DNA of 64,000 nucleotides from Allofournierella massiliensis (GTDB lineage: Bacteria > Bacillota > Clostridia > Oscillospirales > Ruminococcaceae): contig NZ_JAFBIO010000008.1 of NCBI RefSeq assembly GCF_021531255.1, positions 1 to 64,000 on the forward strand, read 5' to 3'. A program made the translations under genes and the position numbers. Of this stretch, positions 13,294 through 56,262 are shown in pieces; positions within the stretch are counted from its first letter, which is position 1, and each line of letters begins with the position of its first letter. The notes beneath the pieces were generated by a model. That model was not told where the DNA came from, searched no databases, and saw nothing but the letters and a program-made list of their open reading frames with translations.

Positions 13294-14799
13294 TTACTTT
13301 TTGGCGCTGCCGTCCCCCTTGCCCAGGCGCACCTTCTTGCCGGGCGCCTCCGCGGGCAGGCTGAAACTGAACCGGCACCATTCGCCCTCCTGGCTCTCGG
13401 CCCAGATCTTGCCGCCGGAAAGGCTGACCAGCACCTTGCAGATATGCAGGCCCAGGCCGCTGCCCCGCACATTGAGGCCGCGGCTCTTGTCCTCCTTATA
13501 GAACCGGTCAAATACAAAGGGCAGGGCCTCCTTGGCAATGCCCGCGCCGCTGTTCCAGACGCTGATGATCACCCTGCCCCCGTTTTTCTGCACCCCAAAG
13601 CGGATGATTCCGCCTTCCGGGGTGAATTTCAGGGCATTGTCCACCAGATTGGAGAGCACTTGATGTACCAGGTCCGGGTCGGCATAGACCATGACCGGGT
13701 CCGGTGCCAGGCCCTCGATCTGCACCTTTCCGTCCTCGATCCGCTTTTCGGCGGCAAAGACCACCCCGGTGATGGTGTTCCAGATATCATACTGCCGGGC
13801 ATCGGCCTTGTACTCGCCGGCTTCCAGCTTGGTGATGTCCAGCATGTTCTGGATCAGCCGGGTCAGCCGTCCCGCTTCCTGGCTCACCAGTTCCAGATAA
13901 TGGGAATAGAGTTCCGGCGGGATGGTGCCGTCTATCATGCCGTCCACAAAGCCCTTGATGCTGGTCATGGGAGTGCGCAGCTCATGGGCGATATTGCCCA
14001 TAAACTGGCTGCGGGAGGAATCGGCCGCCTCCAGGTTCCGGGCCATGGTGTTGAAGGTATCGGCCAATTGGCTGATCTCTTCACAGGATTTGTCGGCCGG
14101 GGCCCGGGCGGAAAAATCCCCGCTGCCAAAACGGCGGGCCGCCTCGGCGATATGCCGCAGAGGCTGGGTGAGCCGGCCGGTGATCACAATGCTCAGGATG
14201 CTGGCCAGCAGCAGCATCAGGCCTGCCGACAGGATGAAGGAGGAGAAGATATCCCCCATATAGCTGGCCAGGCCGGCGGCGCTGCTGGAGGCGATCACAT
14301 AGCCCACCACCTGGTTTTCCCGGCCGTAAGCCGCCTTGCCGGCGGTATAGTACCGGTCGGTCAGCACGCCGTCCAGGTCTCCGATGGCAAAATACCCGTC
14401 CCGGGTATCCATGGCAGCCAGACAATCTGCCGGCACGGCCTTACCCTTTACCAGGATGCTCCGGTTGGAACAGAGGATCACATTCCCCTCGGTATCCAGA
14501 AGGGTGAGCACCACGCTGGAGGAGGAACCGATCAGCTCCACCCGCTGCTCGATCTGGTCGGCGATCTCGCCGTCCAGCTGCAATTCATCCACCGTGTCGG
14601 GGGTATCGGTGCGCAGCAGCAGCTGCATGGACTGGGCCACCGCCAGGTTTACCGCGTCGGTAAGGGCCTGCTGGCGCTCGGCATGGAAATAGCGCACCGT
14701 GAACACCATCTGGGCGGTGCCCATGATGAAGATGCCGATCAGCAGGATGGTGGCAATGGCATTGAACACCAGGGTGCTGATGCTGCGCTGCTTTTCCAT
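13294..14799 (-). CDS. Two-component sensor histidine kinase (PhoR/ResE-like)
   Basis: 501 residues. TM1 at about 10-34, an extracytoplasmic sensor domain of roughly 150 residues, TM2 at about 187-208, then HAMP. The HisKA motif NIAHELRTPMTSIKGF puts the phosphorylated His at about 272. The HATPase domain shows the N box (LSNLVDNALKFT) and the G boxes (NSGAGI, GSGLGL). It is a complete bifunctional kinase. The start is 7 bp after the stop of the response regulator, with AAGGA overlapping that stop. The sensed signal is unknown. The presence of htrA nearby hints at envelope stress (inference). Confidence 0.93.
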   Translation of the reverse strand: MEKQRSISTLVFNAIATILLIGIFIMGTAQMVFTVRYFHAERQQALTDAVNLAVAQSMQLLLRTDTPDTVDELQLDGEIADQIEQRVELIGSSSSVVLTLLDTEGNVILCSNRSILVKGKAVPADCLAAMDTRDGYFAIGDLDGVLTDRYYTAGKAAYGRENQVVGYVIASSSAAGLASYMGDIFSSFILSAGLMLLLASILSIVITGRLTQPLRHIAEAARRFGSGDFSARAPADKSCEEISQLADTFNTMARNLEAADSSRSQFMGNIAHELRTPMTSIKGFVDGMIDGTIPPELYSHYLELVSQEAGRLTRLIQNMLDITKLEAGEYKADARQYDIWNTITGVVFAAEKRIEDGKVQIEGLAPDPVMVYADPDLVHQVLSNLVDNALKFTPEGGIIRFGVQKNGGRVIISVWNSGAGIAKEALPFVFDRFYKEDKSRGLNVRGSGLGLHICKVLVSLSGGKIWAESQEGEWCRFSFSLPAEAPGKKVRLGKGDGSAKK

Positions 14800-14806
14800 G
14801 GTTTTC

Positions 14807-15496
14807 TCAGTCCTTCACTTCAAACTTGTAGCCCACGCCCCACACCGTTTTCAGGCTCCACTGGTCGCTGGCGCCTTCCAGTTTTTCCCGCAGGCGCTTG
14901 ATGTGTACGTCGATGGTGCGGGAATCCCCATAGTACTCAAAGCCCCACACCTCGTCCAGCAGCTGGTCCCGGGTGAACACCCGGTTGGGGTGGCTGGCCA
15001 GAAAGCTCAGCAGTTCCAGCTCCTTGGGGGGTGCATCCACCACCTTGTCCTTCACCTTCAGCTCATACCGGGACATATCCACGCTCAGGTTGTCGTAACG
15101 GATAATGCCGTCCCGGTTTTCCTCCCCGGCGCTGCAGCGGCGCAGCACCGCCTTGATGCGGGCCACCACCTCCTTGGCGTCGAAGGGCTTGACCACATAG
15201 TCATCTGCCCCCAGCTCCAGGCCCAGCACCTTATCAAAGGTTTCGCCCTTGGCGGTAAGCATGATCACCGGGGTATCCCCCGCGGCCCGGATGCGGCGGC
15301 AGACCTCCCAGCCGTCCATCTTGGGCATCATCACATCCAGCAGCACCAGGTCGGGGTGCTGCTGCTCAAAGGTATCCACCGCGGCCTGACCGTCGTGGGC
15401 AAGGCTGATCTGATAGCCTTCCTTATTCAGATACAGGCGAAGCAGTTCACAGATATTTTTATCATCATCCACAATCAGGATCTTCTCGTTGGCCAT
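14807..15496 (-). CDS. OmpR/PhoB-family response regulator
   Basis: 229 residues. The receiver domain has the acidic pocket VDDD and the phosphorylated Asp54 in LVLLDVMMPKMDG, with Lys in VKPF. The C-terminal winged helix has the OmpR pattern LTxxELxLLxxL (here PPKELELLSFLASHPNRVFTR) and the DVHIKRLREKLE recognition helix. Such proteins bind direct repeats spaced by about 11 bp, which is the pattern seen upstream of htrA and of the candidate RNA near 56.1 kb. A minus-strand -10 TATAAT lies at 15566-15561. It is the first gene of the operon with the kinase. Confidence 0.95.
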   Translation of the reverse strand: MANEKILIVDDDKNICELLRLYLNKEGYQISLAHDGQAAVDTFEQQHPDLVLLDVMMPKMDGWEVCRRIRAAGDTPVIMLTAKGETFDKVLGLELGADDYVVKPFDAKEVVARIKAVLRRCSAGEENRDGIIRYDNLSVDMSRYELKVKDKVVDAPPKELELLSFLASHPNRVFTRDQLLDEVWGFEYYGDSRTIDVHIKRLREKLEGASDQWSLKTVWGVGYKFEVKD

Positions 15497-15560: not shown

Positions 15561-15566
15561 ATTATA
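15561..15566 (-). promoter_or_regulatory. -10 element for the two-component operon
   Basis: TATAAT read on the minus strand, about 65 bp before the response regulator ATG. No consensus -35 is evident, so activation by a regulator is possible. No TTCACA repeat is present at the positions used at htrA. Confidence 0.55.
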
Positions 15567-16634: not shown

Positions 16635-16688
16635 TTCACATTTTCTTCACCCTGCCACTATCCTCTTTTCACAATTAGCCGGTACAAT
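16635..16688 (+). promoter_or_regulatory. htrA promoter P2 with phased TTCACA operator repeats
   Basis: TTCACA at 16635, TTCACC at 16646 (11 bp apart) and TTCACA at 16668 (22 bp further). A -10 TACAAT is at 16683-16688 and there is no consensus -35. The first two repeats start 48 and 37 bp before the -10, exactly as at 56024-56077. The pattern fits a PhoB/OmpR-type activator site. Confidence 0.65.
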
Positions 16689-16769: not shown

Positions 16770-18095
16770 ATGGAAAATAAATGGGAATATAATTACGAAA
16801 ATCTCCATACCGATCGCCCCGGCGATACCAGCACCTACTCCACCGATGCCGCCTGCGGATATCAGCCCGCGCCGGTTTCCGCCGGTCCTGCCAGCGGCCC
16901 GGCCGGCGGCGGCCCCGGCGGCCCCGCAGGCCCCCAGAACGGCGAACCCGCCCCTGCGCCTGCTCCCCAGCCCTCCGGGCACAAAAACCACGGCGGCAAG
17001 AAATGGCTGACCCGGGCGCTCTGCCTGGTTCTGGTGGCTGCGGTAGGTTTTGCCGGCGGCGTGGCGGGCTCCCGCTTTGCGGGCGGCTCCAACCGGGTGA
17101 TCTACCAGAGCGTGAACCGGGGCGACGCCTCCTCTTCCGAGGGCAGCGTGCCGGAAGGTGAAGCCATGAACACCAAGCAGGTGGCCAGCCTGGTCGCCCC
17201 CAGCGTGGTGGTCATCACCACCGAGGAAGTGGTCACCAGCAACTACTGGTTCGGCGGCCAATATGTGGAAAGCGGCGCCGGCAGCGGCGTGATCATGACT
17301 GAGGACGGCTATATTCTCACCTGCGCCCACGTGGTCAGCGGCGCTTCCTCCATCACGGTTACCCTGACCGACGGCACCGAGTACCCTGCCACCCTGGTGG
17401 GGGCCGACAGCCAGAGCGACATTGCGGTGATCAAGGTGGAAGCCACCGGCCTGACCCCCGCCGTGATGGGCGACAGCGACGCCCTTGCCGTGGGTGAGGA
17501 CGTGGTGGCCGTGGGCAACCCCCTGGGTGAATTGGGCGGCACCGTTACCAACGGCATTGTCAGCGCCCTGAACCGGGAGATCGAGGTCAACTCCTCCACC
17601 ATGAGCGTGATCCAGACCAACGCGGCAGTCAGCCCCGGCAACTCCGGCGGCGGCCTGTTTAATGCGGCCGGCGAGCTGATCGGCATCGTGAACGCCAAAT
17701 CCACCGGCGATTACGCCGAGGGCCTGGGCTTCGCGATCCCCATCAACACGGCTCTTCCCGTGGCGCAGGATCTGATTGAAAACGGTTATGTCACCGGCCG
17801 GCCCGCCCTGGGCGTGACCGTGCTGACCATCAGCGACGCCCAGACTGCCGCCCAGTACGGCGTGAGCAACTACGGCGTATATATCATTGAAGTCAACGCG
17901 GGCAGCGGTGCCGAGGCGGCCGGGCTGCAGGCGGGCGATATGTTCGTCAGCGTGGACAACACGGTGGTCTCCTCCACTGCGGAGCTCACCGACATCATCA
18001 GCCAGCACCAGGTGGGCGACGTGCTCAGCGTGCAGATCAGCCGCGACCGGCAGCTGCTCACCGTGGACGTGACCCTGGGTGAAAGCGCCTCCTGA
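16770..18095 (+). CDS. htrA: HtrA/DegP-like serine protease with PDZ domain
   Basis: 441 residues. A Pro/Gly/Ala-rich cytoplasmic region of about 75 residues precedes one membrane helix (about 79-100). The S1C protease domain follows with His187 (LTCAHVV), Asp217 (SQSDIAVIKV) and Ser292 (SPGNSGGGLF), then a single C-terminal PDZ domain (from about 340). It is a membrane-anchored quality-control protease acting outside the membrane. It is driven by a promoter with phased TTCACA repeats, probably under a two-component regulator such as the one 1.3 kb away. The ATG is preceded by AAAGGAATG. It ends with a strong hairpin at 18140. Confidence 0.93.
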   Translation: MENKWEYNYENLHTDRPGDTSTYSTDAACGYQPAPVSAGPASGPAGGGPGGPAGPQNGEPAPAPAPQPSGHKNHGGKKWLTRALCLVLVAAVGFAGGVAGSRFAGGSNRVIYQSVNRGDASSSEGSVPEGEAMNTKQVASLVAPSVVVITTEEVVTSNYWFGGQYVESGAGSGVIMTEDGYILTCAHVVSGASSITVTLTDGTEYPATLVGADSQSDIAVIKVEATGLTPAVMGDSDALAVGEDVVAVGNPLGELGGTVTNGIVSALNREIEVNSSTMSVIQTNAAVSPGNSGGGLFNAAGELIGIVNAKSTGDYAEGLGFAIPINTALPVAQDLIENGYVTGRPALGVTVLTISDAQTAAQYGVSNYGVYIIEVNAGSGAEAAGLQAGDMFVSVDNTVVSSTAELTDIISQHQVGDVLSVQISRDRQLLTVDVTLGESAS

Positions 18096-56023: not shown

Positions 56024-56077
56024 TTCACAGATTGTTCACAGCACTTTAAAGAAATACACGCATCTTGCTTCTATACT
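56024..56077 (+). promoter_or_regulatory. Promoter of a candidate small RNA with phased TTCACA repeats
   Basis: TTCACA at 56024 and TTCACA at 56035 (11 bp apart), then TTAAAG in register at 56046. -10 TATACT at 56072-56077, no consensus -35. The distances of 48 and 37 bp to the -10 are identical to those at htrA. Confidence 0.7.
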
Positions 56078-56083
56078 ATAAGC

Positions 56084-56193
56084 ACAGAGCAAGGGAGCCG
56101 CAACCTTTGTTTCTGTACATGATTCCTCCTCACACCAAAGCGATACCCCAACAAAAGAAAGCGCCCCTGTACCGCAAGCAGGGGCGCTTTTCC
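56084..56193 (+). ncRNA. Candidate regulated small RNA (about 110 nt)
   Basis: Starts 7 bp after a clear -10 and ends in a terminator (56158-56191: AAAGCGCCCCTG/CAGGGGCGC, then TTTTCC). The RNA is mostly unstructured before the terminator and shows ATTCCTCCTCACACC (56122-56136), complementary to Shine-Dalgarno sequences. No convincing ORF with a ribosome site on this strand. On the minus strand a 14-codon frame (56119-56075) has a Shine-Dalgarno, so the anti-SD could partly mirror that. Confidence 0.55.
56158..56191 (+). terminator. Terminator of the 56.1-kb RNA unit
   Basis: 12-bp G/C-rich stem, 9-nt loop, TTTT. Confidence 0.88.
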
Positions 56194-56262
56194 TTTGCCT
56201 TTTTATTTGTGCAGGGTGTTCGGGTTTGCAGGCAAAAAAACAGAAGGGGTAAACTTATGAAA

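Follow-up and report, generated by a model that had tools for sequence, protein, structure and literature searches.

Among described regulatory systems, the closest in its working to the one reported here is CiaRH of Streptococcus, whose csRNAs consist of two stem-loops and an unpaired anti-Shine-Dalgarno (anti-SD)/anti-AUG stretch (PMC3091779, PMC8186281). CiaR controls htrA as well (PMC12826053); its site is TTTAAG-N5-TTTAAG, 10 bp from the -10, and its recognition helix reads VVEVYVSK(V/I)RKKL (PMC3091779). A second point of reference is CssRS of Bacillus and Streptomyces, a secretion-stress two-component system that lies beside an htrA-family gene and activates htrA (PMC12826053, PMC12802291). 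Additionally, 11-bp TTNAYA repeats are common among OmpR/PhoB-type sites, and the Pho regulon (PhoP/PhoB) is marked by 11-bp tandem half-sites of this type upstream of the -10.

In the window, by which we mean the whole 64,000-nucleotide stretch of Allofournierella massiliensis DNA that was analyzed, the promoter of htrA and that of a small RNA (sRNA) carry matching repeats (Table 1), and we consider it likely that a single response regulator of the OmpR/PhoB type uses both as its operator, in a CiaRH-like envelope/heat-stress regulon that includes a new sRNA. As in CiaRH, there is an OmpR-family two-component system and a direct repeat of N5-spaced hexamers (11-bp period) before the -10; htrA and sRNAs fall under one regulator, which here means a shared operator recognized by sequence and conservation only; and the window sRNA has the csRNA plan of two stem-loops and an unpaired anti-SD/anti-AUG region. 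The differences, however, are several. The motif is TTYACA rather than TTTAAG, the boxes span -48 to -15 instead of forming one pair 10 bp from the -10, and the recognition helix of the window response regulator is TIDVHIKRLREKL, as opposed to VVEVYVSKVRKKL in CiaR; moreover, one sRNA per genome is the rule and it has no Rfam match, hsp20 with its CIRCE element belongs to the regulon, and the hosts are an order of gut anaerobes, not streptococci. Membership in CiaRH is therefore rejected on motif and recognition helix, despite a working like that of CiaRH and its csRNAs. CssRS shares with this locus the genetic linkage of response regulator and kinase to htrA and the same proposed signal, misfolded extracytoplasmic protein, but an sRNA is not mentioned for CssRS in PMC12826053 and PMC12802291. 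A Pho-regulon reading was rejected too, since the pstS promoters lack the operator: pstS of this genome is absent from the matches of the operator model described below, the TTTAC-type repeats upstream of it differ from the operator, and in place of phosphate genes the targets here are htrA, hsp20 and the sRNA.

Table 1. Features of the proposed regulon in the window (positions count from the first letter of the window).
Feature	Position	Strand	Details
Sensor histidine kinase	13294..14799	-	HAMP, HisKA, HATPase_c; directly after the response regulator, same strand
OmpR/PhoB-family response regulator (proposed regulator)	14807..15496	-	Response_reg + Trans_reg_C
Response regulator promoter, -10 TATAAT	15561..15566	-	TTCGCA and TTTATA, 11 bp apart, starting 38 and 27 bp upstream
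htrA operator	16635..16673	+	TTCACA 16635-16640, TTCACC 16646-16651, TTCACA 16668-16673
htrA promoter, -10 TACAAT	16683..16688	+	no consensus -35
htrA, trypsin-like serine protease with PDZ domain	16770..18095	+	Trypsin_2 3e-36, PDZ_2 5.5e-14
sRNA operator	56024..56062	+	TTCACA 56024, TTCACA 56035, TTAAAG 56046, CACGCA 56057
sRNA promoter, -10 TATACT	56072..56077	+	no consensus -35
sRNA, ~110 nt	56084..56197	+	ends inferred from -10 and terminator; expression inferred
sRNA hairpin 1, loop region GGAGCCGCAACC	56084..56116	+	covarying stem, helices 1-3
sRNA ultraconserved unpaired core ACATGATTCCTCCTCACACCAAAGCGATACCCC	56117..56149	+	anti-start-codon CAU and anti-Shine-Dalgarno CCUCCUC
sRNA intrinsic terminator	56158..56193	+	helix 4 covariation, 98.5% of cells paired

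The boxes at htrA start 48, 37 and 15 bp before the -10, with 33 bp (3x11) between the first and the third and a degenerate in-phase slot at 16657, and the two TTCACA boxes of the sRNA promoter start 48 and 37 bp before its -10. With spacers of 16-18 bp, the -35 region reads ATCCTC/TCCTCT/TATCCT at htrA and AAGAAA/AGAAAT/AAAGAA at the sRNA, none of them consensus. The HtrA protein matches degP_htrA_DO at 1e-80, which is under the curated cut-off. An initial annotation, made from the letters of the window without database searches, had placed the htrA repeats with their 48- and 37-bp offsets and a third box in register, had found two TTCACA repeats 48 and 37 bp before TATACT at 56024, and had noted the lack of a consensus -35 at either promoter; the positions held exactly and the last point held as well. 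The RNA that it saw there is a conserved sRNA, the novelty and anti-ribosome-binding-site core of which it did not notice.

Are two such promoters more than a coincidence? The initial annotation held that the match is hard to explain by chance and proposed a genome-wide repeat scan; the bare pair of repeats, on its own, occurs near chance level. Exact TTCAC-N6-TTCAC is found twice in the window, and with one mismatch allowed there are three sites against 2.0 expected, which is not significant. Genome-wide scans were carried out with patterns and with models; the exact pattern occurs seven times in the 2.53 Mb genome (three for the reversed-pattern control), and by inspection only the htrA and sRNA promoters among the seven are intergenic with a -10 in register. 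The raw count was dropped as evidence, and the significance of the operator rests instead on conservation and cross-prediction.

With regard to conservation, TTCAC-N6-TTCAC-N17-TTCAC at htrA is retained in 10 relatives (genomes of Gemmiger and Fournierella, plus one very close relative), in whose promoters the -10 stays in place while the bases between the boxes vary. Several other genera of the family have the same operator upstream of htrA. All 32 distinct sRNA promoters, from about 15 genera, have four 11-bp-phased TTYACA-type boxes at -48, -37, -26 and -15 from the -10. When these promoters are aligned at the -10, TTNA-type boxes stand out at -48 and -37, those at -26 and -15 being weaker, and box scores peak at the 11-bp steps of this register, the exactness of which is slightly favoured by our having picked the -10 jointly with the boxes. 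The first box is TTTACA in many sRNA promoters. One promoter (L108, in G189) has a longer TTCAYA-type array, with two extra boxes upstream and one spacing of 10 rather than 11 bp. With regard to cross-prediction, a matrix built from the sRNA promoters of other genera places the window htrA site second among 127,894 positions, surpassed only by the sRNA site (score 35.4, the next being 10.5), and one built from the htrA promoters of other genera places the window sRNA site second, after the htrA site (23.5, next 5.7). A matrix from Ruminococcus promoters of the operon of response regulator, histidine kinase and htrA gives the window sRNA site the top rank, with the htrA site only in 30th place. 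The rival view that the two promoters are alike by chance can point to the seven genomic occurrences of the bare pair, near chance level, but it is contradicted by conservation across about 15 genera, by the reciprocal matrix predictions and by a held-out third target, and we regard it as all but excluded. The shared operator of 11-bp direct repeats of the OmpR/PhoB type that the initial annotation had read into the two promoters is thus supported.

The third target is hsp20. An operator model built from 31 promoters has three matches below 1e-3 in its own genome, namely the sRNA (E 2.1e-7, a site that was among the training sites), htrA and a site that had been held out of training, before a gene for the heat-shock chaperone Hsp20. 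Directly upstream of the last lies a CIRCE-like inverted repeat, TTAGCACTC...GAGTGCTAA, with the phased TTYACA boxes immediately after it (G000, C55:19522-19576; L162, L238), and the arrangement of CIRCE, operator and hsp20 is found again in G001, in G020 and, outside the family, in G436. HrcA and the proposed response regulator would thus appear to control hsp20 jointly, an inference from sequence alone without binding data. 

Other held-out matches of the model include a diverged sRNA copy in G005, two more operator-driven RNAs in G407 (L222, L231), and operator-like boxes (L235; G031, C57:2990) upstream of a gene whose product we take, by eye and without a family search, to be FtsH-like. 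The two G407 RNAs each have a hairpin, a CUCC-containing linker and a terminator, and do not evidently resemble the main sRNA in sequence, so that this genome has several csRNA-like RNAs. In G105 (L159, C3:205350), the operator precedes another RNA of hairpin, linker and terminator, again without evident sequence similarity to the main one, and in G003 (L221, C2:144608), CIRCE and operator occur with no hsp20 downstream; a short hairpin follows and then a tmRNA-like 3' end on the opposite strand.

Conservation of the sequence that follows the 56-kb promoter is that of a transcription unit in its own right. Its fold has a minimum free energy of -39.7 (z -4.2), it scores 118.9 bits against the covariance model, and the same architecture is seen in each of 31 folded copies: a hairpin at the 5' end with a GCCGCAAC loop, then a core left largely unpaired, and finally a terminator. 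RNAalifold on a plain MAFFT alignment, in which hairpin 1 was misaligned, recovered for that reason no more than a portion of the terminator and was set aside in favour of single-sequence folds and a structure-fitted alignment. In the latter, 94.5% of pair cells are standard pairs (73% when shuffled), and double-sided changes number 106, compared with 27 in shuffles and at most 22 in slid controls; such an alignment leans towards its own structure, and the margin over the controls is wide. The 22-base core, with at most two mismatches, is present in 33 of 248 genomes of the family, spread over 15 of 126 genera (control, 0). A wider RNA model, trained on a set that included three of the distant rows, extends the sRNA to further families of the order, with homologs in 31 of 394 genomes (E <=0.001), mostly with the variant core CATGTTCTACCCTCCTCAA. 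This model contains no promoter sequence, yet phased boxes precede most of the homologs that it detects, with the -10 displaced by one base in some. Two sRNA copies occur in certain genomes of a single genus (L183, L184; G195, G260). No Rfam family scored above its gathering threshold in a search with the sRNA, and the literature we searched held no such sRNA family and no described sRNA in the group related to Gemmiger, Fournierella and Ruminococcus. In all likelihood, then, this is a previously undescribed conserved family, its expression as a discrete RNA being inferred.

What would such an RNA do? Its core, 5'-ACAUGAUUCCUCCUCACACC-3', complements an mRNA start region GGUGUGAGGAGGAAUCAUGU comprising a Shine-Dalgarno sequence, a short spacer and AUG. 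Since csRNAs share the plan and CiaR controls htrA, we infer by analogy that the sRNA represses translation of several mRNAs under envelope/heat stress; its targets, like its expression and mode of action, are inferred. Pattern searches found no mRNA in this genome with a perfect or near-perfect complement to the core, relatives yielded scattered matches with one or two mismatches and no gene in common, and duplex energies between the sRNA and the start regions of the window gave no usable discrimination. In G020 (L192, C1:898794), the ribosome-binding site of a six-codon ORF, MKKRFM, matches the core complement at 15 of 16 positions; the ORF, possibly a target or a leader peptide, was not seen in the other genomes searched. 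It remains possible that the conserved RNA is not a trans-acting anti-ribosome-binding-site sRNA and instead binds a protein or works by another mechanism. In favour of this alternative, the core and the loop GGAGCCGCAAC are conserved beyond what pairing to drifting ribosome-binding sites needs, no clear target emerged from the pattern searches, and one other family has core CATGTTCTACCCTCCTCAA with the CCGCA loop unchanged. Against it, CAU and CCUCC are retained, unpaired, in nearly all copies at spacings that fit SD-AUG, and the similar csRNAs have documented anti-ribosome-binding-site action (PMC3091779, PMC8186281). A further alternative is that the core encodes a short peptide, MIPPHTKAIP..., as the conserved stretch begins with ATG. 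However, third codon positions are identical, the frame is broken after seven codons in some genera (L038, L039) and runs into the terminator in others, and there is no well-placed Shine-Dalgarno sequence; we consider this very unlikely and rejected the peptide reading, as the frame is not kept.

The preferred reading, a translational repressor under a shared operator, calls for a regulator. The response regulator in the window meets the definition of the OmpR/PhoB family (receiver domain plus winged-helix Trans_reg_C), and its start lies 1.27 kb from that of htrA, in agreement with the 1.3 kb of the initial annotation. It has a single ortholog in 38 of 40 family genomes (its own included) at 59-99% identity, the next paralog reaching at most 52%. 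The Ruminococcus response regulator is its ortholog (67-69% identity), and the ortholog heads a cluster with the kinase and HtrA in Ruminococcus, in Cacconaster loci and in nine of nine sRNA-negative family genomes examined; in Gemmiger-type genomes, htrA adjoins mnmM instead. The promoter of the Ruminococcus cluster itself has TTTAC/TTCAY boxes at -59, -48, -37 and -26, in the same phase. In the window, the box pair at the response regulator's own promoter is weak and one base off register, possibly a weak autoregulatory site, as judged from sequence only, and in Gemmiger-type genomes these promoters mostly have one box, at -15. Because of the orthology, the conserved linkage to HtrA and the in-phase boxes of the Ruminococcus cluster, the 14807-15496 protein is likely the regulator and the best candidate for it; the initial annotation's choice of this protein is thereby supported indirectly, and binding has not been shown. 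Could the operator be real and bound by another OmpR-family regulator, such as a PhoB/PhoP-type or WalR-like paralog? The first box is TTTACA in many sRNA promoters. Other OmpR-family regulators use similar 11-bp repeats, and TTTAC repeats do occur upstream of pstS here, so that cross-talk is possible. The in-register boxes before the Ruminococcus operon, the synteny with htrA, and model targets that are protein-quality-control genes and RNAs, with pstS not among them in this genome, make this alternative unlikely.

Computation establishes the operator with its conservation and register, the three targets, the fold and conservation of the sRNA, and the linkage of the response regulator to htrA. 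On this basis we propose the following mechanism, in which binding by the response regulator, activation rather than repression, and the inducing signal are all inferred, without data on binding, expression or mutants. Under extracytoplasmic or heat stress, the histidine kinase would activate the response regulator, dimers of which, once phosphorylated, would occupy TTYACA half-sites in a head-to-tail arrangement, spaced by 11 bp at -48, -37, -26 and -15, and would bring RNA polymerase to these promoters, which have no -35 of their own. Members of the regulon here would then be htrA, hsp20 (also under CIRCE, presumably through HrcA) and the ~110-nt sRNA. The last would expose, between hairpin and terminator, a single-stranded anti-SD/anti-AUG stretch that blocks translation initiation of target mRNAs. 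In this way, the sRNA may lower the load of new, probably exported, proteins, and HtrA and Hsp20 would handle misfolded ones.

We also lean, by a narrow margin, toward a bolder reading: that gut anaerobes related to Gemmiger and Ruminococcus share an envelope/heat-stress regulon throughout the order, with htrA, hsp20 (CIRCE acting there as well) and an undescribed sRNA family, the ultraconserved anti-ribosome-binding-site core of which throttles translation, all under a single two-component system. Such a regulon would be a second version of the CiaRH-csRNA circuit of streptococci, built independently of it. For abundant and poorly studied gut anaerobes (Gemmiger, Fournierella and Ruminococcus relatives), the analysis supplies a defined stress regulon with an operator, a likely regulator and targets, together with a conserved family of sRNAs that Rfam does not contain. 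Its likeness to CiaRH suggests that the coupling of HtrA induction to an anti-ribosome-binding-site sRNA has arisen, or been kept, more than once, and such recurrence makes that design testable.
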